A program made the position numbers and the translations under genes. From Eunapius fragilis (lineage: Eukaryota; Porifera; Demospongiae; Spongillida; Spongillidae): a stretch of 64,000 bases of DNA. The stretch covers positions 11,021,820-11,085,819 of the forward strand of contig OY811972.1 in the NCBI GenBank assembly GCA_963681505.1, read 5' to 3'. Shown one piece after another: positions 1,604-59,448 of this stretch. The notes beneath the pieces are model-generated. The model saw nothing but the letters and a program-made list of their open reading frames with translations. It was not told the origin of the DNA and did not search any database. How positions within the stretch are numbered: the first letter of the stretch is position 1; every line of letters begins with the position of its first letter.

Positions 1604-4600
1604 TCAGTCCCAGTTGTAGTCCCAAACTGGTCCGCATGTTGTCTCTTCATGTGGATGCAGCCTGGTCTGCATCACCTGATGTGCATGGATGCCCAATGAC
1701 TCCATTACAGCAATGGCGTCCTTTATCCTTTCACTGTGACCATCAAGTACCACCTGAAGTATCCTCAACAGCGCTCTGTAGATTCCATGGAATGCCTTTG
1801 CCTGTGTATAACAGTTTGTGTTGGGTCTTATCTTGTCTTTGCTGGGATTGGACTGCATAGGCCACACCCCTGATGAGTTGTATGGTATCAGTGAGCCACT
1901 GTAACAGTAGGAACCATGTTTCTTCACAAGGTGTCGCTCACATACGATTTCTTCAAATTTGTAGAAGTGGGCTATGTTGTCTTCAGAAATTGGTAAGTGA
2001 TTTACTGTTGGATCAAGTGGACTAGCACCTTCTCCCTGCTCAATTATCTCACTGATGGCCTTCTTTGCTGCAGTAGAATCCGTGATGATATGGATGCTGC
2101 CACCGATGAAGGAATCGACCCAAGGCCAAACAACTTGTTTTCGAGCCTCAGCGGAGATAAATATGTCATCACCAAGAAAGCCAATGCATTCACTAATTTC
2201 GTTGTAGAATTGTCCAATGGTGTTATTAAATACAATTGGATTATGTGTATCAACAGAGATGTCATGAGGGACTTCAATTCCCATTAAGACTTTGTACACA
2301 TGCTCCCTGGAAAGCCTCTCTAGGTTAATGACCAGATTGGGTAGCACCCCTCCAGGTAAACCTTTGGCTGGATATGAAGGAGCTACATCGCTTCTGTCTA
2401 TGACTGGATGACCTCCTATTGCGGTCAAGATATTGGCAGCATGTGTCATGTGTTGCATCTCCTGCTTAACCACATACTGAATGATTTTGCGTATTTCCTG
2501 GTTGCAACCATCAACTATTGAGTACAGAGATGTCAGGTATACTGGAATTGTGTAAAATTCAAGCTCAATTGCAGTCTGGAGTTGCTCTCTGAGTGTTTGT
2601 AATGTGCAGGAATCTAATTGAGCTGTGAGGCCAAACTTAATCAGTGGTCTGCGATGAGCATTAATAGTGTTTGGTAAGTAGTAGGCTTGTGTATATAAAT
2701 GCTGAAAACCACTTGGTTCTAGTTCACTTTGACAATATAAACATCTCTGTGGAAGAAAGATTGGTTTTGACATTTCATGATCTTTTTTTCCATGCGACAC
2801 ATTTAAAGGAATGCAGATGTCAGCATTCTTGCCCTCGATGGCACGATCAAGTTCATTTTGAATTGGTGAATAGCTTGGTACTGGTTTTTGCCTAAGCCAC
2901 TTTTGAATCATTGCCCTTTTTGATGGGGACAGGTCCCTGGTCACTGGCATGTAGTTGGGATGATTAACATCCAGTCCCATTGTATAATCAATTAGATGAA
3001 GGTTTCTAATACTTGTGACATCAATGTAGTTACCGAGGTTCACCACATGCTTCATGGCAGGAAAAAGTCGCTCATATAGCTGGAAGATGGGTTGAACATG
3101 TTCTACCCAGTTAGGGTGTTTTGGTTCCTTAAAATATGAAAATGCTAAAATGGCAATGAAGTTATTTTTTTGAATTATGTTTGCATACTTGAATGTACCA
3201 TTATCAGTAGGTGCTCTACTAAGGGAGTACTCAAAGCTATACAGCTGCCCTTCAATGGGTAACTCCATTCTGTTGCATGGTGTTTCTGGTGCTGAAAATT
3301 TCCTTAGCAGTGGTATTTTATTCATTGCATGGAATGTTATAGTGGCTATTCCTTGTTCATTGGTAGTACTGATCTGTGGTGTTACTATGATACCATTTAG
3401 TGGAGAGGCAGATGAGTGCTCATAAACATATACAGATTGATCCCTAAGAGGCCACCCATACTGAGTGACTTTTAAATCAATCTTCATTGCTTCTTTATAT
3501 TCCAGTTGGCCTAAGTAGTTGCCCATCGGCCGTATGAATTTTTCTATTTCTTGCAGCATCGGCCTAAGAAAAATAATTTCGTTTGAACATGAGTGATCAA
3601 AAGTAGGGGAAAGCTTTAAGGTGACACCTCTCCTTACTTCAAAAACATAGAGTTGTGAAGACAAAAGATGGTCATAATTGTTTTTAGAGAGAATGTGATC
3701 ATGTATGCAGCCTTTATGAACCCAACCTATGTCCAAATAAGAAATTGGTCCACTTATCAAATGAACACATTTCAGGGTTTGATCTCGCACACCAAGCCAT
3801 AGTTCACCTAGGTTCACAAAGTTACCATCAACATCAAGTGATATGGAATTGCTAAAATCCACAGTTAGTCTTAATGAATTGTGATCAATTTGAAATGGTG
3901 CATTGTACATCAAGGTATTCGGCCTGGACCCATTCTGAATGCTGTTGTCGTACAGATGTGGTTGAGGGACACCTTCATATGAGAGCATTCTCTCTCCTGC
4001 AATCAGTACTGGGTTGTTTAGGCTAGGAGGTCCAATCGTCCCAATAAGATGTGCTAACGTTTCATTATTCAACTCCTTGCGTGGATTTATTGAAATATAA
4101 GAATATATTGTCAGTGAAATAGAAAGCGTTCCACCTTGCTGATCAGATGCTTCTTTGAGTTCCTGCAGTGAGGGAGACCCAAAGATCTTGCCCCACTTAA
4201 GGTTGCTAATGACTGAGGCAGACTTAGCACTTAAGCAGTAGTCTGGAGGGTTGCAGCTCCTGACTGTATTACCATCCGTGATGTGGATATCTCTACGCCA
4301 CACATCCTGTCCCAGAACAAATGGGGTGACCTTGCCTTGAATCAGAACTTCTCCATCAACTCCTACCACAGCTAGGGTTAATCCATACACAGTTGTTAAC
4401 ATCAGCTGTACATCAAAATCAACTGCCTTTGCATATGGTTCATCTAAATTGTTCACCACTGCACTATTAATGACAGCGTCATCAACAGGCTGCTCTCCAT
4501 CCAATCCTATGGCTGACATTACTCTGCAGTTAAATAATGAGAACTCTCCTGTACCTTGGAAGTTCCAACCTTTATCAATGGGCTCATCAGGATGAAAGTT

Positions 4601-4729
4601 GCATGGCATGTTGTTCCCCGTGGCTGCATCAACACGCACTTGACCATTGAAGCTTAGTCTGGGAAGATCCAGATGTGAGCCACTGGCAATGTGAGGTCTG
4701 TAAAGATCGATGATTAAAAATATAATCAT
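1604..4729 (-). CDS. VioB/RebD-like iminophenyl-pyruvate dimer synthase family protein (ferritin-like)
   Basis: A single open frame of about 1,041 codons from the first ATG (4729). The N-terminal signature LDLPRLSFNGQVRVDA matches the start of VioB-type proteins, which dimerise the imine of indolepyruvate in violacein and rebeccamycin synthesis. A YMPVTRDLS-type motif near residue 610 precedes a C-terminal ferritin-like domain (about residues 700-930). This has helix LQTAIELEFYTIPVYL and then KQEMQHMTH, which supply Glu/His metal ligands; a GGSIH...IIEQGEG stretch follows. Length is close to bacterial VioB (about 1,000 residues). On the minus strand a good 3' splice site (tcgatctttacag) ends at 4698, so the real coding exon may begin at 4697 and be joined to an upstream exon I cannot locate; otherwise translation starts at 4729. 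There is no in-frame stop or frameshift. Family membership is firm; the substrate is unknown, and no tryptophan-oxidase partner is visible nearby. Confidence 0.85.
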   Translation of the reverse strand: MIIFLIIDLYRPHIASGSHLDLPRLSFNGQVRVDAATGNNMPCNFHPDEPIDKGWNFQGTGEFSLFNCRVMSAIGLDGEQPVDDAVINSAVVNNLDEPYAKAVDFDVQLMLTTVYGLTLAVVGVDGEVLIQGKVTPFVLGQDVWRRDIHITDGNTVRSCNPPDYCLSAKSASVISNLKWGKIFGSPSLQELKEASDQQGGTLSISLTIYSYISINPRKELNNETLAHLIGTIGPPSLNNPVLIAGERMLSYEGVPQPHLYDNSIQNGSRPNTLMYNAPFQIDHNSLRLTVDFSNSISLDVDGNFVNLGELWLGVRDQTLKCVHLISGPISYLDIGWVHKGCIHDHILSKNNYDHLLSSQLYVFEVRRGVTLKLSPTFDHSCSNEIIFLRPMLQEIEKFIRPMGNYLGQLEYKEAMKIDLKVTQYGWPLRDQSVYVYEHSSASPLNGIIVTPQISTTNEQGIATITFHAMNKIPLLRKFSAPETPCNRMELPIEGQLYSFEYSLSRAPTDNGTFKYANIIQKNNFIAILAFSYFKEPKHPNWVEHVQPIFQLYERLFPAMKHVVNLGNYIDVTSIRNLHLIDYTMGLDVNHPNYMPVTRDLSPSKRAMIQKWLRQKPVPSYSPIQNELDRAIEGKNADICIPLNVSHGKKDHEMSKPIFLPQRCLYCQSELEPSGFQHLYTQAYYLPNTINAHRRPLIKFGLTAQLDSCTLQTLREQLQTAIELEFYTIPVYLTSLYSIVDGCNQEIRKIIQYVVKQEMQHMTHAANILTAIGGHPVIDRSDVAPSYPAKGLPGGVLPNLVINLERLSREHVYKVLMGIEVPHDISVDTHNPIVFNNTIGQFYNEISECIGFLGDDIFISAEARKQVVWPWVDSFIGGSIHIITDSTAAKKAISEIIEQGEGASPLDPTVNHLPISEDNIAHFYKFEEIVCERHLVKKHGSYCYSGSLIPYNSSGVWPMQSNPSKDKIRPNTNCYTQAKAFHGIYRALLRILQVVLDGHSERIKDAIAVMESLGIHAHQVMQTRLHPHEETTCGPVWDYNWD

Positions 4730-4802
4730 TGATTGTGGCACACGGTATCAATGCATAGCAGAGTGTCTAAACTTATGATTATGCAATTAATTGTGTTAAG
4801 AA

Positions 4803-24290: not shown

Positions 24291-25089
24291 TAAGGTTTGA
24301 AACCGGTTGTGCCGGAGCTCCGGTTAACCGGTTAACCGACGGTTAACCGATCGCGAGAATTAAATAACCGCCTCAACCGGTTCTATTTCAGCGAAATAAC
24401 CGCTTCAACCGGTTGATAAAATATTAAGCAACCACAACCGACCGGTTGATATTTTATTGAGGAGTTGTAAGTGGAGTCACGTCCGTCTTACATCTACCAA
24501 TAATGCTGGGCGCGAGAAAACAATAAGCGGACGAAAGTGAACTGTTACAATTGAGAGATTCATCTCTTCGTTGTATGCATGGTGATACTTACAGTAACTT
24601 TATTAGTTTTGGAACAGTGTCTAGCAAAATCACCCCTATGATACTATCAAATTTTACAGGACAAGCAAAACAAAAGTAGCGCTCGAATTGAAATGTATGG
24701 CTAATTATAAATTCAGTACCTATAACTTTATGATGGATAGCCCATGCGTAAGGACCATTTGCTAGAAACTCTTTGGAGTTCACGAAAATTTTAAAAACTT
24801 GAAAAACTATCCAGACGGGGGACTTTGCTGGACACTAGCAACAAGGCCACATTCTTAGGGGTACGCCGCGGATCGTCTTTCTTGCCATGTGGCAAAGCCC
24901 GAGGTTGTGCTGGTTTAACTTTTGGTCCCATCGAATAATCGTTAAACCGGCAACAACCGGTTGTTTTAAAACGAAAAACCTCAACTGACCGGTTATTTTT
25001 TTTAAAAAAATCATCTTAACTGACCGGTTTTTAAATTTTAATAACCTCTTACAACCGGTGTTTTCTAAACTAACAGGTTTCAAGCCTTA
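24291..25089. mobile_element. Nonautonomous hAT-type element with perfect 8-bp target duplication
   Basis: The ends are TAAGGTTTGAAACCGGTT and, inverted, TAAGGCTTGAAACCTGTT. Each is directly flanked by cttgaaag (24283-24290 and 25090-25097). Both subterminal regions are full of AACCGG/CCGGTT motifs. An 8-bp duplication is the hallmark of hAT transposition. There is no transposase frame. It contains copy 2 of repeat D (24611-24808). Confidence 0.93.
24611..24808. repeat. Dispersed repeat D, copy 2 (inside the hAT element)
   Basis: It matches 5680-5878 and 34423-34612 in the same orientation, for example ctagcaaaatcacccctatg and atgtatggctaattataaat. Its position inside the hAT borders shows it was carried or captured by that element. 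Confidence 0.75.
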
Positions 25090-25351
25090 CTTGAAAGCTA
25101 CCAGAAGTACAAGCCAAAATGTCTCATCAACATGTGTACATGCATCATGCAGAGACCACTAGTATGAAGATCTTCGAATTACATTTTTAATTTCATTAGG
25201 TCCCTTTTGCAGCAATCATCCGATTGATCTAGTGTGTATAGGACACTGCTAGCTCAGCAAGATCACCAACGTATTTGCAGTGCGGCTTCCGATTGGGTTG
25301 TTATTTAATCAACGTTTCACTGCACGCATGCGTATGAGCATTGCCCGTCAA

Positions 25352-25359
25352 TATAAAAG
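25352..25359 (+). promoter_or_regulatory. TATA box of the microexon knottin gene
   Basis: TATAAAAG lies 65-72 nt upstream of the ATG at 25424. Transcription would start near 25382-25390 and leave a 5' leader of about 40 nt without an upstream ATG. Confidence 0.65.
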
Positions 25360-25423
25360 GTAACGCGATCGACTTCACGGCACTTTGCGCTTGAACTGTG
25401 TCAACAGAGCAGACGGATAAGAA

Positions 25424-28062
25424 ATGTACACTGGAGCGGTTCTTCTCGTTGTGGCTCTGCTGACCATCGGTGGGGAATGTCGTCAAGTGAAGGTGAGAAT
25501 ATAATCCCGTCATCTATTCCGTGCGCCAATCATTGATGCAATGGTTTTGTATCCATACAGTCCAAATACGCCAACGGTAACTTCTAAATTGATTCATGTC
25601 AGTAATGGTGAAATGTCATCGGTTTGACAGTTGACCTACAGGCTCTCAACAACATCGTTGGTAGGTTTACTTGTCTGCAGCGCATCGTACGTTGTATTAG
25701 AATTATCTTGTTTTTCTGCAGATGCCATTCTAGCTTCAGGCCGGTAGGAGCGGCATCTGTTCAGTTTTGCTATGCACTCATCTATACCATCTTCTTGCTT
25801 CATGCGAAATAAAAAATTCAATTAAGCGTAAGTATTCTATATTGCAATGCAAACTATTACGTTACAGTAATTTATTTAATTAACAAATGAAATAGCTTCC
25901 TGACCTATCCGCACAAATCGTAAGTTTGGTATTAAAATGCCACACTTCTTTATGTTTTCTTCCGTTTTTCTATATGCATCGCACGTGACTTATAGTATGT
26001 ACGTATGTCTAACGGTCTACATATTGCACGTGCATCATTATCTCAATCAATTCAATTCACTCGCTCATTGATAACATAAGTGCGACAAGGTGGGTGTATC
26101 TTTCATTGCTTGTACAACATTAATAGATCTGTTTGTTCCGCTTTGTGTAACCTCGTGACGTAACAGAACGGGGTGAGTCATGTGTACCAGAATTATTAAT
26201 AGCTCACATTCATACTGCGTCTTTGTCCTTTTAATATGATGGACATGCTCATTTACACAGGAATGCGTAAGTACTACCAGCTATGTTTATAGTGCCAATG
26301 GCTGACTTTTACCTCCGACATGAAACACTGACGAATTGATGTAAAATTACAGCCAGTAAGTTACTCGTGATTTTTCGGATTTCTATTTCTGGGGTATAGT
26401 CGTTTAAACGAATACATGCAATGCTCAGTGTATGTACTGTGTATACTTTATATACGAATGTACATACCATATCACCAGTTTCTCTGGTATATAAATTATG
26501 AATTATAAATATTGCTTTTAGAGGATGTGTGTAACATGATGCATTTATCCTCTCCATTTCTCCCATGTAGTCTGTGAGTTATCATGTGCAGTTCTAGCGT
26601 TGATGTGCATATTCTATTCTTCACTTCAATATCGATATACAACATACTAGTGGGTAAGTATATACAAAAATACGTTGTACAATTTTAAGCATCATGCATT
26701 TTTTCACTATGCTACCATTTTGCAGACCGTAAGCTTATATGAATCCAACATTGCATGTACCTAATGTCGTCTATCTCGCCATCGCTCTGTCATGAAATCA
26801 ACTGCAAATGCATAATCATATAGGGAGTAAGTCCATCGTTTTTATTTTTTATATGTCATTACCGCGATTCTTTGCTTTGACATCCTTGCTACGTATAATG
26901 AAGACTCAATGCGTAAGTACACATATCTGATCACTGTACACGTGGTTCAACGATTTCCGACATCTGATAACACTGCAGTGTGTAAGTGCACATTTTATAT
27001 GCCGATCGGTTGTATACGACGACACTATTACGTCATATTTCACTTATTATTGGAATGAACTCTTCGTCATTAATAAATCCAGCCCGTATGTTTAAAACCT
27101 TTGTACGCCTGTATAGTGTTACTTTAATCCTTCCTCTCTCTCCTCTCTAACTGTATATGATAACGATCCATGCAGGATGTAAGTACACGTATATAACTAT
27201 TAACTTCTGACTCACCTCATCTATGTGTCATGGTGATAATGGATTATACTGTACTAAACATGATGGATATTTCATTTTCGTAGAAAGTAAGAATATGAGG
27301 TTCATTCTTGCTGCATTGTGATTAACCTTCCCACCCTCGTCTTTCTTTAACAAAGATCGTAAGTCACAACGCATACGTGCGTAAAATAGTGATTCGAAAT
27401 GTGATTGCATTAACATTCACTTCTTCCTCTCCGTTCTACGCCAACTGCTCCCTTAGTGCGTAAGTTCAATTATATACATGCAATCAGAGTCTTTTGAATT
27501 AAATAATCCTTCCATCCTACTTACACGCAATACTCAAGTGGGTAAGTGCCGATAACCTACGATTCGTGCAAGTTTTGCCAATTAATTCATTACTATTCCA
27601 CGACTTGCTCAACCAATTACGAACAACAGTTTGTAAGTATACAGTGGGCTAATTTCGTCTGGCTATTAATTCACTAATTTCTTCTGCATTGCTGGATATT
27701 AACAATATTGACGGCATAAGACTGTAAGCGTTGGTATTGAAAAGGATAATTAAACTCACAATGACATTGTTTACTCCTTTTTGGTGTTGAAACTGTATCT
27801 GGTATTATTAATAATTCAGTGGGTAAGTTGCAGGACTATACATGCATTCAATGGCATTATTAACCCACTGTGTATAATACATGCCCAAATGATGAAATAC
27901 ATCATGTAGCACGGAGTAAGTTATTAGCTGTTAGTGTAATGTTTTAACATTTATTTTGTTCTCGTCATGTTCCAATTTACAGTGTGTAAGTTATTTGAAG
28001 AGATTAGTGTTTCAAATGTGGATATTTCTTTTCTTCACTAGCCTCCAAGTCAATCGGACTAA
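25424..28062 (+). CDS. Secreted six-cysteine knottin precursor built from 29 exons, 17 of them single codons
   Basis: The predicted product is 89 residues. Exon 1 (25424-25492) encodes a signal peptide, MYTGAVLLVVALLTIGGEC. The propeptide is in 25561-25576, 25631-25660, 25722-25743 and the 1-nt exon 25827. The remaining exons are 25896-25919, 25996-25998, 26081-26089, 26167-26172, 26261-26266, 26353-26355, 26571-26573, 26651-26653, 26726-26728, 26824-26826, 26904-26912, 26979-26981, 27083-27085, 27176-27178, 27284-27286, 27356-27358, 27457-27459, 27539-27541, 27630-27632, 27721-27723, 27820-27822, 27910-27915, 27983-27985 and 28042-28062 (TAA stop). Every exon is framed by AG and GT; 16 of 28 donors are GTAAGT. 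From 25896 on, every exon is a multiple of 3 in phase 0. The cysteines fall at C-x5-C-x7-CC-x4-C-x6-C, the inhibitor-cystine-knot framework of sponge asteropsin-like and many animal knottins. Introns are 54-105 nt except one of 215. Activity is unknown; exon calls need RNA support. Confidence 0.85.
25808..25813 (+). terminator. Intronic polyadenylation signal (possible short isoform)
   Basis: AATAAA lies in intron 4 of the knottin gene, about 60 nt after an in-frame TAG (25745-25747) that is read if exon 4 is not spliced. Together they would allow a short transcript encoding only the signal peptide and propeptide. Confidence 0.4.
25827..25827 (+). other. Putative single-nucleotide exon (exon 5 of the knottin gene)
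   Basis: The base C sits between AAG and GTAAGT. Exon 4 ends with two bases of a codon and exon 6 reads in phase 0, so exactly one base is missing. This C supplies it and makes an Arg codon (CG+C). The flanking introns would be 83 and 68 nt, typical for the locus. Confidence 0.6.
25996..27985 (+). other. Single-codon microexon array
   Basis: Twenty-two consecutive exons lie here. Seventeen are 3 nt, three are 6 nt and two are 9 nt, typically 66-105 nt apart. Each 3-nt exon has the form AG-NNN-GT(A/G)NGN. The six knottin cysteines are in 26081-26083, 26264-26266, 26910-26912, 26979-26981, 27457-27459 and 27983-27985; three of these (26979, 27457, 27983) are whole exons on their own. All introns are phase 0, so skipping any exon would remove only whole residues. 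Confidence 0.85.
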
Positions 28063-28484
28063 AAACTGGTAGGTCGCCATCTGATAAAAAGTGAAATATG
28101 TATCAACTTTTGGTGCACCTTGCCGTACTTATCATGTATCCAAAGCCGGGTAAGTCGTGCATCACCTGGATTGCCGCTTTCCTAATATTATGTGTGTCAT
28201 CCTTCAAGCTACTGACAAACTGCCGCCTGCTGATAAGCCAGAAGGACAATTTTCTTTTAATGTGTAGTTGCTGCATCATTTTTGAAACACGATTGCTTTT
28301 ACAACACTATATTCGGGGAGATTCGGAGGGTGAGGTTAAACGAAAGCCGATTCTTATAACGCGGTGGAAGTATTTTTTCCATGAGGAATAGTGGATATTA
28401 ATCAAAGTTTAGGACATAGATACTTGCGATGGAATGTTAAACCAAGTATTTATGGACACTTGATGGTCAGGAGCAAGAAAAAAA

Positions 28485-28490
28485 AATAAA
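28485..28490 (+). terminator. Candidate distal polyadenylation signal of the knottin gene
   Basis: AATAAA lies about 420 nt after the TAA stop. The interval 28063-28484 is then 3' UTR; a frame there starting at 28098 has no recognisable motif and I do not call it a gene. Confidence 0.45.
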
Positions 28491-28530
28491 ACAAAGGATG
28501 GATTTTAAAAATACAATTCCGGTCTGGTCC

Positions 28531-28992
28531 TGGTCCAATTCAAAGTAAAGAAATGATGGTCTATTGGGGTAAGGTGGCTGTGTATTTGAGGATATCAGGG
28601 GAGGATACAGGAATTCTGGAAGGGGGGCGTGGGGGAGGGGGGTCCGACATGAATAATCAAAAGAGGAGGGTGCGAGAGAAAGCTTTTGAGGGATCCCGCA
28701 CTTAATTGGCGACAGTCTGCTGAAACTAATGTGCGTCGTTCGACTTGAGGGACTCTAGTCTCAGTACAACTCATAAACTGCGTATCCTAAATTCATGACC
28801 TATTGAACAGACTTATTTTCCTATCACTGCAGATGGCTGTGGAATTACAGGAAAATACGTATTTATCCGATTTCACATTTAATTGAACTAATAAAACTGT
28901 AAAATGTACAATTACTGCAACATCATTTACTGGTACAAAATAAAAGATTGAAACATTTTCCTGTTGTGTTTGCTGATAAATGCTTCACATAT
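28531..28992 (+). repeat. Dispersed repeat H, copy 2
   Basis: This is the reverse complement of 20945-21443. It includes gaggatatcaggggaggata, a G-rich tract, cgcagtttatg in inverted form and aggaaaatacgtatttatcc. Confidence 0.85.
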
Positions 28993-29439: not shown

Positions 29440-31330
29440 TTGCTTTTATGTAATCACAGTTCGCTTATTCATCAGCTCACGGTAGTCGACACTCAGCCTC
29501 ACCTCCCCTGACTTATTTGTCCACATACAGAGCTGGTGACAGCCATGGACTGCAGCTTTCCACAATGATTCCATTGTGCAACAACTGCCTGCCTGTACCG
29601 CCACTTCATCTCCTAAGTAGGTTGGGATCCAGTTTGTGTACCACCTCGCAGGATAGCAGCCCACTTTCGAGATGAATTAGAGTTACAGATCATTGTTGCA
29701 CAATGGAATCATAGTGGAAAGCTGCAGCAGTCCATGACTAGTTCCTGCACTGCATCCACCAAAGAAGTCAGGGGAGGTGGGGCTGTGTGTCAACTACCGT
29801 GAGAGGAATAAGCAAGCTGTAAAGAATGCCTACACCCCCTGCCACTAGTGGATAAAGTCCAGGGCAGACTAGCAGGAGCAGCCATATTTAGTAAACTCCA
29901 TGGATAGCAGTCGAAGTGTGGCATACACCCAACACAGCAAAAGAAGTGCAGCAATTCCTTGGGTTAGCCTCATACTACTACAGGAGATTTGTGTCAGGGT
30001 TTGCTGATGTTGCAGCACCCCTGGACCAACTAACACAAAAGGACATCCAGTTCAGCTGGTCCAAGGATTGCAATGAATCCTTTCAGTGCTTGAAGTAGTC
30101 GCTGACAGAAGCACTAATGATAGCATTCCCACACTTTGACTTTCATGCCAGCCCCTTTATCCTTTAAACTGATGCTAGTGCTGGGCGGGGGGAGGGGTGG
30201 GGGGTTGGGGGGGGGGGGGAGTGCAATGCTGCAGCAGGATGGACATGTTATTGCCTATGCAAGTCGTGTGTTGAACAAGGCCGAATGTAATTACAGTGTC
30301 ATTCAACAGGGGGACTTGGCAGCAGTGTATGGTATGAAGAAGTTCAGGTATTACCTGTTGGGGCAGCCATTTGAACTTTGGACTGGCAATGAGCCATTAA
30401 GGTGGTTGCCAAACCAAAAATTGGAGGGAATGCTGGGACGCTGGGTTCTGGCTCAGCAGGGGTACAGTTTCACTGTTGTGTACCCCAGAGGCAGCCAGAA
30501 CACCACTGCTGATGCATTATCCAGTCATCGAGACCCAATTATGGCCACACTTCCAGCAGCTGTAACCAGAGCAGACATTCAAGTACTGTTGACTTGCATC
30601 CTAAGCAGCTCAGAAGCAGGACCAAGTGATCTAGCTCGTCACTCAGGAATTACAATTTTCAACTCACCCAACAACTATCAATTGACGGAAGCCTCCATTG
30701 ACAAGATACTCCCAATTGTGGGCACAGCTTCTCCTAAAAGGAGACACTACTCATCTGGACCAACTTCAGATACTGTAACAGTCCCAATCAACCCTCCAGA
30801 AAGAAACATTGCAGCAGTGCCATGACTCACCTCACGCCGACCACCAAGGTACACATAATACCCTTTACTGACTGAGATATATGGCATACTGGGTTAATAT
30901 GGCACTAGATGTGGAACGTCATTGTAAAGAATGCACTGTTTGCCAGCAGACAAAGCCTACTATGCCGATGAGAATGCAGATGACAAATGTGCCAATCGGA
31001 AGACTGTGGCAAATGATAGCAATGGACATCTTGGAGGTGCCAGTGTTATACAACAACAATAGATATCTTCTATTAGTTCAGGATTATTTTACCAAATGGG
31101 CTGATGCTATACCACTACCTGATCAAACTGCCTCATAGATAACCACTGAGCTGGTGGATCTGCTCACCACATATGGAGTACCAGAAATTGTACACTCAGA
31201 TCAGGGCTGAAATTTTGAGAGTGCAACTTTTCAGCAGGTCTTAAAGGCATTTGGGGTTAAACTACTGCCTATCAACCACATGGTGATGGCATGGTTGAAA
31301 AATTCAACTGCACTTCCAGTTGCTCCGCAC
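29440..31330 (+). pseudogene. Decayed Ty3/gypsy-type retroelement (reverse transcriptase, RNase H, integrase fragments)
   Basis: Recognisable pieces in order are: an RT fragment (VNYRE region, about 29750-29810); QQFLGLASYYYRRFVSGFAD (29948-30007); an RNase H segment with VIAYASRVLNKAECNYSV and NTTADALS; a zinc-binding CKECTVCQQTKP motif near 30912; and an integrase core start (DILEV...DYFTKWADAIPL) with a DQG further on. The frame is broken many times and no LTRs were found. At 29480-29600 the same RT stretch occurs in reverse orientation, so the 5' part is an inverted duplication. Confidence 0.8.
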
Positions 31331-36369: not shown

Positions 36370-36573
36370 TGTAAATATCTATCAAAGTATACATGTATAT
36401 AGTTGCGTAGCTACAAGCATGAGTGCATACTGATCCACTGTATTACTTATTGCACCAGTACATGTGGACAACTGGCATTAAAGTGAACACATGTTAAATT
36501 TTTAAGGTCGCTGTGATTGTGGTTGAACTTAATCTTGATATAATATTAGGAATTTCATTATACAATAACCTGT

Positions 36574-36716
36574 CACCATAGCCTTCATTACATGATCCAG
36601 TCTCATAGCCTTCACTTCATGATCCTGTCCCATAGCTTCCTCTACATGGTCCTGTCCCATAGCCTCCTCTACATGGTCCTGTCCCATAGTCTTCACTACA
36701 TGATCCTGTCTCAGAA
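36574..36716. repeat. Minisatellite of about 31 bp, 4-5 units
   Basis: Units follow the pattern catagcct.cactacatgatcc, then tgtcc, repeated in tandem about 200 bp upstream of the TRPA-like start codon. The copies differ by a few substitutions. Confidence 0.8.
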
Positions 36717-56700: not shown

Positions 56701-58140
56701 CGCTCATCTGCAGTTCAACACTCAATCAACACAGGTGATCACCCGCCCATTAAACAACCTTGCAGACTGATTCCATGCATTGGCGAGACAGGAGCATGCT
56801 CACAAGTTGGTTAAAGAAATGTTAGCAAGAGAAGTTATTCAACCATCAAACAGTCCGTGGGCATCACCAGTGGTTCTGGCCCAGAAGAAGGATGGCACAT
56901 ACCGTTTTTGTGTCGATTATCGGAAGCTCAATTTTGTGACACGCAAAGATGCCTATCCTCTTCCTCGGATTGACGAAACATTAGAAGCCCTTGGGGGATC
57001 ACGTTGGTTTTCCACACTACATCTGCTGACTGGCTATTGGCAAGTGGAAGTAAAAGAGGAGGACAGACCGAAGACAGCGTTTTCAACACGGGATGGAATT
57101 TAAGGTAAATCCCTTCGGTTTGTGCAATGCACCTGCAACATTTCAGAGGTTAATGGATATGGTACTAGTACTAGCAGGTGTGAAATGGAGTAGTTGTCTA
57201 GTATATATAGACGACATTGTCATAATGGGCAAAACCTTTCAGCAGCACGTAGACAACTTGGGGCTATAGTACTTGAGAAGTTGAGGAGGGCGGGGCTGGA
57301 GGTGAAACCATCTAAGTGCTTTCTTCGCCGCAAAGAAGTTCTTTACCTAGGGCATAAGATAACTCGGGAAGGCATCGCTACGGATCCAGCAAAGATTGAG
57401 GCTGTGAACAAGTGGTTAACCCCCACCACAGTGCAAGAGCTTCAAAAGTTCCTAGGACTGGCTGGATATTATAGGAGGTATGTGAAAGATTTTGCTAGCT
57501 TGGCACAACCTCTATTCCGATTGATGGAGAGGGGCCGCGAATTCAAGTGGACACAGGAGTGCTCAGAGGCATATGCAATATTGAAATTACGACTAACATC
57601 GGCTCCAATCCTCGCTTTTTTTCCTGACTTTAAAGCTGTCTTTGTCCTTGATACAGACGCAAGCGAGTCCGGAATAGGTGCTGTGCTGTCTCAGGTGGAT
57701 ATTGATGGAGAGGAAAGAGTTATAGCCTATGCAAGCAGAGTCCTTAACAAGGCGGAACCGAAGTACAGTGTAACGAGAAAAGAGCTGTTGGCTGTGGTAA
57801 CATTTATTAAGCACTTTAGATCTTACCTACTCGGAAGGCACTTTATCCTCAGGACAGACCACAGCTCATTGCAATGGCTGTACACCTTCAAGAAGCCGGA
57901 GGGGCAAATTGCAAGATGGTTAGAAAAGTTGCAGGAATTTGATATTGAAATGGTCCATCGGAGTGGGCGGAATCATGGGAATGCTGATGCCCTTTCGCGT
58001 TCCAGACTTCTACCTGAACAAGATGTTAACGTTAACACTCTCTTAGGCCTGGTGGTGTCCGAAAAATCCATACAACAGCTTCAGCTCCAGGACAAGAGTA
58101 TTGGCCCAGTGTACCAGGCTATGCAGGATGGTTCGTAACC
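56700..58140 (+). pseudogene. Reverse transcriptase and RNase H of the gypsy element
   Basis: Motifs in order: SPWASPVVLAQKKDGTYRFC, RKLNFVTRKDAYPLPRIDE, a frame change near 57100, the YIDD catalytic box near 57205, LGLAGYYRRYVKDFA, and RNase H with VLDTDASESGIGAVLSQ and NADALSRS. A frameshift at about 57100-57230 splits fingers and palm, so it is not translatable as one protein. Confidence 0.85.
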
Positions 58141-58182
58141 CGGACCAGAAACTACGCGGACCAGGGTGGCTCTCGAGAACTT

Positions 58183-59448
58183 TTGCAGTTGATTGAGCAG
58201 TGGGATCAGCTGACGTTGAAAGATGGAGTATTGTACAGACAGCATGAAGATGCAAATGGACATATGAAATTCCAAGTTATCTTACCAGAGGTGAGTAGAG
58301 AAGAGGTTCTAGATAGCCTGCATAATAAAGGAGGGGGGGGGGGGCATCTTGCCTTAAGTCAAGTGCAGGAGTGCTTTTATTGGCCGGGTCATGTAGACGC
58401 TGTGAAGCTGTGGTGTAGAAATTGTCCATACTGTGCAGTCAGAAAAAAACCCATGTCAGGAGCGCCGGCACCGTTGCAGAGTGTTCGAACGGGATATCCA
58501 TTATAATTGCAGGCCATTGCAGTCGATATTGTGGGTCCTTTTCCACCAGTGCAAAGTGGAAACATTTATATCATGGTGGTGTGCGTGCGACTATTTCACC
58601 CGATGGGTTGAAGCATTTGCCATACCCAACCAAGAGGCCACAACTATTGGTGGTGGAGGAGTTTATCTACCGTTTCTCTGTACCGGAACGTTTGCACTCT
58701 GATCAAGACCGACAATTTGAGGCAAACATCATGATGGAGATTTTCAAGCTGCTCCACATCAACAAAACACGCACCGCACCATACCACCCACAATCTGACG
58801 GACTGGTGGAACGGTTTAACCGTACACTAATTGGGATGCTAGCGGCAACCGTGGAAGAACATCCAGGGGACTGGGATAAACATCTGCGGGCAGTGTGTAT
58901 GGCCTATAATACATCTGTCCATCCATCTACAGGGTTTTCCCCATTCTTCATGATGTTCGGGCGGCAAGCAAAAATACCACTGGATCTGGTCTATGGTTCA
59001 ACGCCTACAGAGGAAGTGACGTACCCCGAACATGTAAGACGTATTAAGAGCACTCTAGAAGAGGCTTATTCTAGGGTGAGAGAGCACATGGACACAAAAT
59101 TAGACAGGCAAAAAAGAGCAGTACGATAGGAGAGTGCATGGAGAGGAAATTAATGTTGGGGATCTAGTCTGGTTGCATAACCCTGCAATTAATAAAAGCA
59201 GAGGGCGGAAACTGCATTGCCCATGGTCTGGGCCATATAGGATCATTAAGAAACTGTCAACAGCTGTGTATAGGATCCAGGATACAAGACCAAATAAAAG
59301 AAAGCGGTTAGTAGTGCATTTCAATCGCCTTAAGCCCTGTCCACCAGGTGTTCGAGTACCTGTAACTTCTAGTTCTCAAGAGGTTTCCCCCCCCCTCCCC
59401 CCCCCCCCCCCCCCCCCCCTCCCAGGGTTCAGCCAAAGTGACACATAG
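58183..59448 (+). pseudogene. Integrase of the gypsy element
   Basis: A zinc-binding HHCC region (H near the G run at 58330-58343; C-x2-C in CRNCPYC) precedes a core with the first Asp in VDIVGPF, the second in HSDQDRQFEA and the Glu in DGLVERFNR. A C-terminal segment with INVGDLVWL...GPYRI follows. The pieces lie in three frames, broken near 58500, 58660 and 59125. Confidence 0.82.
59388..59419. repeat. Poly-C tract inside the gypsy element
   Basis: About 30 C with two interruptions, between the integrase end and the right LTR. It has apparently expanded after insertion or is a variable part of the family. Confidence 0.8.

Follow-up and report, generated by a model that had tools for sequence, protein, structure and literature searches.

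How small can exons become when a gene must build a peptide out of them? The question is raised by a 64-kb stretch of the freshwater sponge Eunapius fragilis (the window; G000:C2:11021820-11085819, forward strand), in which an earlier note had pointed to a knottin gene assembled almost codon by codon. The assembly comprises 218,937,333 bp in 24 contigs, and the excerpted text of PMC12616128 gives 5.69 exons per transcript for its annotation. We read the locus, tabulated closely spaced AG/GT pairs and chained them in phase from an ATG at 25424 to a TAA ending at 28062, on the plus strand. Judging from the DNA, this is very probably a working sponge protein gene for a secreted, six-cysteine, knottin-like peptide whose mature part would be encoded mostly by single-codon exons. 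The overall reading first proposed is thus supported, since triplets in paralogous arrays change like codons while cysteines and splice dinucleotides are kept and leaders lie upstream. The gene stands as it was read, but as one of a genome-wide class and not as a one-off.

The rebuilt chain has 28 exons, in order 69, 16, 30, 22, 1, 24, 9, 6, 6, five times 3, 9, ten times 3, 6, 3 and 21 nt, which supply a signal peptide, a propeptide, 21 micro-exons and a terminal exon with TAA. Its 267-nt coding sequence is open from ATG to TAA and specifies a precursor of 88 residues. The start and stop coordinates proposed earlier proved exact, and the signal peptide, propeptide and TAA end were recovered as exons 1-6 and the last exon, with one putative 1-nt exon added. 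That exon and the 30-nt form of exon 3 are placed because the propeptide frame is otherwise closed. Micro-exons 7-27 are all in phase 0, and there are sixteen of 3 nt, three of 6 nt and two of 9 nt; the 6- and 9-nt counts and the phase are those first given, whereas the seventeen 3-nt exons then counted become sixteen, a 17th candidate at 25996 being dispensable. Sixteen of the 28 residues from exons 7-27 each have a separate exon. The features are listed below, where "chain" denotes placement in the in-phase chain and "scan" a match to AG-NNN-GTAAGN as well.

25352 to 25359, plus strand, TATA-like core promoter candidate TATAAAAG, 72 nt upstream of the ATG (sequence match, activity predicted)
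25424 to 25492, plus strand, exon 1, 69 nt, signal peptide of 23 residues, ending in phase 0 (chain; hydrophobic stretch)
25561 to 25576, plus strand, exon 2, 16 nt, propeptide (chain)
25631 to 25660, plus strand, exon 3, 30-nt form, propeptide (chain); by eye, the 19-nt form at 25642-25660 puts a stop at the start of the next exon
25722 to 25743, plus strand, exon 4, 22 nt, propeptide (chain)
25827 to 25827, plus strand, exon 5, putative frame-restoring 1-nt exon (a single C) in AG-C-GTAAGT
25896 to 25919, plus strand, exon 6, 24 nt, end of propeptide (chain)
26081 to 26089, plus strand, exon 7, 9 nt, first framework Cys and two residues (chain)
26167 to 26172, plus strand, exon 8, 6 nt (chain)
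26261 to 26266, plus strand, exon 9, 6 nt, second Cys (chain)
26353 to 26355, plus strand, exon 10, single codon, Pro (chain, scan)
26571 to 26573, plus strand, exon 11, single codon, Ser, donor GTGAGT (chain)
26651 to 26653, plus strand, exon 12, single codon, Trp (chain, scan)
26726 to 26728, plus strand, exon 13, single codon, Thr (chain, scan)
26824 to 26826, plus strand, exon 14, single codon, Gly (chain, scan)
26904 to 26912, plus strand, exon 15, 9 nt, third Cys (chain)
26979 to 26981, plus strand, exon 16, single codon, fourth Cys (chain, scan)
27083 to 27085, plus strand, exon 17, single codon, Pro, donor GTATGT (chain)
27176 to 27178, plus strand, exon 18, single codon, Asp (chain, scan)
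27284 to 27286, plus strand, exon 19, single codon, Lys (chain, scan)
27356 to 27358, plus strand, exon 20, single codon, Ile (chain, scan)
27457 to 27459, plus strand, exon 21, single codon, fifth Cys (chain, scan)
27539 to 27541, plus strand, exon 22, single codon, Trp (chain, scan)
27630 to 27632, plus strand, exon 23, single codon, Phe (chain, scan)
27721 to 27723, plus strand, exon 24, single codon, Thr (chain, scan)
27820 to 27822, plus strand, exon 25, single codon, Trp (chain, scan)
27910 to 27915, plus strand, exon 26, 6 nt (chain)
27983 to 27985, plus strand, exon 27, single codon, sixth Cys (chain, scan)
28042 to 28062, plus strand, last coding exon, six residues and TAA (chain)
28485 to 28490, plus strand, AATAAA, possible poly(A) signal (consensus match)

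The 27 introns are 54-215 nt long (median 83), and only four reach 100 nt; together they take up 2,372 nt against 267 nt of coding sequence, and 20 of the 27 would bring in an in-frame stop if retained. Two further triplets with weaker donors lie inside introns of the gene, AG-TAT-gtacgt at 25996-25998 (propeptide) and AG-GAT-gtgtgt at 26524-26526. They are possibly optional codons, the chain being complete without either.

Strong AG and GT borders had been claimed for these exons, and the signals bear this out. Micro-exon donors read GTAAGN, GTGAGT, GTGGGT or GTATGT, with GTAAGT following 15 of the 22 exons of 9 nt or less, and the acceptors of the 27 introns end in CAG (13), TAG (8) or AAG (6). 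The longer exons 1-4 have weaker donors (GTGAGA, GTAACT, GTAGGT, GTAGGA), whereas the 24-nt exon 6 has GTAAGT. Upstream of 24 donor-like sites, at distances of 0-19 nt, an AG lies at 3 nt in 16 cases, at 6 nt in three, at 9 nt in one, at 1 nt in one and at no other distance.

Could such an array arise by accident, or could it be a degenerate tandem repeat whose readability is fortuitous? On the plus strand of the window, 14 of the 18 AG-NNN-GTAAGN sites fall within 1.6 kb (26353-27985), and the minus strand has four in total. The 14 sites in 26093-28000 compare with means of 0.043, 0.106 and 0.251 under Markov models of orders 1, 2 and 3, none of which exceeded 3 sites in its 1000 runs. Models of order 4 and order 5, in which the region is partly memorised, averaged 1.9 and 6.1 sites, and their highest single runs reached 8 and 17. 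When the order of the 21 micro-exons was shuffled, a loose six-Cys spacing like that of an inhibitor cystine knot (ICK) survived in 1,933 of 200,000 trials (about 1%), so exon order adds weak support beyond chance. The early statement that chance does not produce such a motif is borne out by the cluster of sites, which is far above the order-1 to order-3 simulations, and weakly by the exon order. Many other arrays do have repeated introns at about 91-bp spacing, and repeats matching the pattern occur in prokaryotes. Yet the stretches from that null scan repeat one triplet, with two of three forced to Cys, whereas the arrays vary, and intron similarity within the window gene does not rise above that of shuffled sequences. 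For the class, the codon changes and the AG..GT retention among paralogs, described below, strongly disfavour chance. We consider an accident of this kind hardly credible.

The second question is whether the gene stands alone. A loose pattern of three codon-exons occurs at 1,999 places in the sponge's own genome, some of them simple repeats, and its reversed control at 1,282. Many arrays are visible among the roughly 100 matches listed, all on C1. (C1, C2, C11 and C21 are contigs of the window's own assembly; array loci are coded L0xx, C20 or C22.) Two adjacent Cys codon-exons plus a third codon-exon, a pattern that itself forces two of three triplets to Cys, were found at 42 places on twelve contigs, against 3 for the reversed pattern. 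Elsewhere the pattern turned up in 5 stretches of a prokaryote collection (257 billion bases) and 1 of IMG/VR. In every one of the six, a single triplet recurs throughout the cluster; five are regular tandem repeats, and the sixth is an irregular TGC-GTAAG repeat.

Thirty loci were fetched around pattern matches in the sponge genome, and two of them (L044, L059) had no runs; the other 28 and the window hold 30 runs of at least seven codon-exons, with 565 triplets and 492 non-identical units. These units contain 80 Cys codons where 37.2 are expected. They hold 1 stop where 20.9 are expected, a depletion that is partly confounded because TAA or TGA after AG re-creates a donor; TAG, a stop without this confounding, occurs 0 times against 3.8 expected. 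Two of three stop triplets initially counted were artefacts of reading inside gtaagtatg, and the rule was tightened for the 492-unit count. Genome-wide, 0 places fit the strict pattern when its middle codon-exon is TAA or TGA, and 0 fit the reversed control, a weak result with the same confounding. In 25 of 31 stretches, the YAG closest upstream of a GTAAGH donor stands 3 nt away in 407 cases, 6 nt in 20 and 9 nt in 7 (434 of 487 together), where length 3 was part of array discovery and lengths 6 and 9 were not; the remaining distances are 7 or 8 nt (3), 16-24 nt (4) and more than 24 nt (46).

The window gene shows what defines this class, namely closely spaced AG-NNN-GTAAGN runs in an open chain downstream of a leader exon. 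Cys-rich arrays with CCC or CC motifs are found at C20, C22, L033, L058 and L072, and at L039 (C1, 21.52 Mb) a leader exon is followed by an array that, by eye, spells CCPDK, as in the window gene. On the minus strand, L070 (G000:C21:1469500-1474000) spells a Gly/Arg/Pro/Lys-rich chain without cysteines, and the class is therefore not confined to Cys-rich peptides. Also on the minus strand, one codon-exon of L043 (G000:C1:18027000-18032000) is a stop where its paralog L037 is open, which would fit a dead copy or a skipped exon.

Leader exons accompany other arrays. The leader of L035 has 29 matches in the genome, and among the arrays listed 19 of the 29 lie at most 3 kb upstream of an array on the same strand, two more lie 4.4 and 6.1 kb away, and none lies within 3 kb on the opposite strand; the leader of the window gene is absent from the 29. 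L035 itself reads as a second gene of 18 exons, 300 nt and 99 residues, open to its stop, with a leader, two propeptide exons (the first acidic), an array and a last exon. A TATA-like box stands 51-77 nt before the leader ATG in 6 of 24 stretches (L035, L039, L043, L044, L058 and the window). Among the other 18, five have ATG/TATA pairs at other distances, judged non-leader, and 13 have none.

Are the triplets translated? We aligned 223 codon-exons in 13 paralog pairs drawn from 14 loci in five families; pairs from one family are not independent. Left out were the near-duplicates or partial copies L036, L042, L044, L056 and L062 and the small pair L040/L060. Divergence at the three exon positions is 0.238, 0.224 and 0.143, against a flank mean of 0.091 and a largest single flank position of 0.161; AG and GT(R)AG have zero divergence here by construction. 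Codon changes number 79 non-synonymous and 13 synonymous, and the 48 Cys comparisons include 5 synonymous and 0 non-synonymous changes. With each pair taken in both directions, AG..GT is retained in 428 of the 443 units aligned; four-base control sets in introns are retained in 1,724 of 2,467. Because exon bases outpace their flanks, changes are mostly non-synonymous, cysteines are unchanged and leaders lie upstream, the triplets behave as translated codons under diversifying selection.

The same counts bear on another explanation, in which the triplets are stepping stones of recursive splicing, or decoy exons, and never reach the protein. AG-NNN-GTAAGT does resemble a recursive splice site with a 3-nt spacer, and introns outweigh coding exons about nine to one. 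Against it stand the excess of non-synonymous changes, the absence of any lost Cys, the enrichment of Cys and the single stop among 492 units, and the introns seem too short to need ratcheting. We regard untranslated triplets as very unlikely.

Several points weigh against translated codons and against the gene as we read it, among them the limits given above for the paralog pairs, the splice dinucleotides and the stops. In a wider per-pair comparison of 18 pairs, which takes in most of the loci left out above, codon divergence is below that of introns in L054/L055 (0.037 against 0.061) and equal to it in L037/L043 (0.063 in both), and L041/L042, L061/L062 and L052/L056 show no codon change at intron divergences of 0.009, 0.061 and 0.006. 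The chain needs the putative 1-nt exon at 25827. In its own genome the spliced coding sequence matches solely exons 1-4 of its own locus, with no paralog, retrocopy or intronless copy found; the array DNA (26060-28070) and the leader plus propeptide, searched as protein, likewise match only themselves. Since no paralog was found, the codon counts come from other members, and the case for this gene rests on its anatomy and its class. Its introns resemble one another no more than shuffled sequences do (mean pair score of 3.3, with 1.9 and an sd of 5.1 for the shuffles). The precursor matches no Pfam family, no relative in the protein database at E <= 10 and no knottin among two PDB matches; those two are designed PPR/solenoid repeats aligned to the propeptide and were taken as spurious. 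A search for known RNA families in 24800-28800 found none.

In part these points would suit a real class in which this locus has decayed or fallen silent, or has a true exon chain that differs, for example in the propeptide or by the triplets at 25996 and 26524. The lack of a paralog, the need for a 1-nt exon and the two additional AG-NNN-GT candidates speak for it. The chain is nevertheless open from ATG to TAA with strong micro-exon splice sites, and the TATA-like box is spaced much as in other array genes. A decayed locus or a different chain is, in our view, improbable.

What peptide would it make? The spliced product carries the framework C-x5-C-x7-CC-x4-C-x6-C after a hydrophobic leader and a propeptide, exactly as first described. 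Knottins, or inhibitor cystine knots, have disulfides I-IV, II-V and III-VI in a knotted fold. Six cysteines in ICK-like order and spacing are present, and this much of the proposed knottin identity is retained; the negative Pfam, PDB and protein-database searches lend it nothing, and "knottin" here describes the cysteine order. Secreted defence and venom-type peptides typically combine a leader, a propeptide and conserved cysteines with fast change elsewhere. The peptides predicted here may resemble them, and conceivably act in defence or in some other interaction with microbes, predators or competitors.

Sponge knottins offer the nearest comparison at the peptide level. Asteropsins and stryphnines are likewise six-Cys peptides, non-toxic to the cells tested, and stryphnine precursors have signaling, intermediate and peptide regions (PMC13418204, excerpted text). 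The opening loop is x5 here, against C-x6-C in the search pattern of that source, and its main text, as far as available, contains no exon, intron or splic- terms.

How might such arrays have arisen? Introns are alike within the arrays L032-L035, L038 and L040. One of these introns has at least 542 matches in the genome, counted from 40 of 139 candidates and often 91 bp apart, and one intron family is present on at least 10 contigs. Because introns repeat, often at this spacing, arrays seem to grow by copying intron-plus-codon units, after which selection would diversify the codons but not the cysteines. In L037 and L039, as in the window gene, the introns show no similarity above the level of shuffles, as if these three were older. 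At L071 (G000:C11:3595000-3602000, minus strand) a run of 52 codon-exons spells a peptide in which one segment, roughly DPSKVIN...FCPPDK, is repeated; it looks as though many intron-plus-codon units had been duplicated together.

The codons beside similar introns complicate this picture. Among unit pairs, 12 of 34 differ in their codon at 1.1% flank divergence and 94 of 128 at 3.2%. In L033, L040, L049, L058, L070 and others, units with 97-99% identical introns often carry different codons, and several units of L033 share the third base T alone. No simple copying model seems to explain the speed of this codon-only difference, which would need very strong diversifying selection, homogenised introns or intron insertion. 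The last would derive the arrays from one mobile, introner-like intron inserted between the codons of a once continuous exon. Similar introns bordering different codons, and one family spread over contigs, are what insertion predicts, but the intron would need to have landed, always in phase 0 and at 3-nt steps, at almost all codon boundaries; the peptide-level repeats of L071 point instead to multi-unit segment copying, and the related leaders to gene duplication. We therefore think insertion unlikely, although it is a more serious contender than the explanations weighed above. Introners are likewise similar introns multiplied across a genome (PMC9860276, in part), whereas the copies listed here sit in codon arrays. 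The window gene lacks the near-identical dispersed introns that mark introners; similar introns do occur in other arrays.

How would the transcripts of such a gene be spliced? We propose a model where the TATA-like promoter yields a pre-mRNA with a coding span of 2.6 kb, from which 27 short, ordinary GT-AG introns are removed by what is presumably ordinary splicing chemistry. Because a 3-nt exon cannot hold both splice complexes simultaneously, one intron would go first, and the joined codon would probably carry with it an almost perfect 5' splice site, GTAAGT, to be used in the step that follows, in a ratchet akin to recursive splicing. It is tempting to speculate further, and quite tentatively, that across the superfamily each residue is its own cassette, which can be duplicated, lost, swapped or skipped without damage to the frame; codon skipping could then give a peptide library for combinatorial defence or self-non-self marking. 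A genome so equipped would lengthen, shorten and edit its peptides residue by residue.

Tiny exons have precedents, and the closest are the schistosome micro-exon genes (MEGs). The excerpted text of PMC10526429 describes very short exons, 10 to 20 in number and mostly of 15 bp, and introns of about 0.1-5 kbp; the exon range is 6-81 bp in the body and 3-81 bp in the abstract, in place of the 6-36 nt cited by the earlier note. MEGs have numerous tiny exons, for the most part divisible by three in length, and their products are secreted (PMC10526429, same excerpts). The sponge gene is similar in that exons 7-27 are all multiples of 3 and the hydrophobic leader predicts secretion. Unlike in MEGs, single codons make up 16 of the 28 exons, one exon measures 1 nt and none measures 15 nt, and the introns, at 54-215 nt, are not long. 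Because these two features fail, we do not file the gene under MEGs; its six-Cys product and the repeated introns of sister arrays are further differences. MEGs produce variants through alternative inclusion of micro-exons.

Single 3-nt exons are known from Ncam (PMC8042270) and Drosophila homothorax (PMC7392893), where, in the text available, a lone codon likewise forms an exon, but one such exon in an otherwise normal gene and not a peptide-building run. Plant micro-exons of 1-15 nt (PMC8831610, in part) also go down to 1 nt, have strong intronic signals and probably lose their flanking introns one after another. About half of them are a multiple of 3; they are conserved within genes, and the excerpts mention no single-codon array. 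Among the papers listed from open-access PubMed Central we found no report of a gene or class in which most mature-peptide residues are separate exons. Single 3-nt exons are not new; a peptide-building gene, or a class, of codon exons would be. Such genes would test spliceosome fidelity on dozens of exons too small for any exonic signal, and codon-sized cassettes with a duplicable intron would be a new route to peptide diversity. The resulting repertoire is expected to escape gene finders, RNA-seq mappers and six-frame searches, and would change ideas on minimal exon size and on how peptides are constructed and diversified.

Elsewhere in the window, a 1047-residue open frame (stop to stop) at 1604-4747 on the minus strand carries the Pfam Ferritin-like domain PF12902 at residues 723-935. 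On the plus strand, 56771-59448 and 30124-30825 hold remains resembling long terminal repeat-type retroelements, with RT_RNaseH domains (PF17917, PF17919) within 57194-58138 and 30124-30825 and adjoining frames that by eye are reverse transcriptase- and integrase-like. A 27-bp tandem repeat of 5.2 copies lies at 36569-36710.

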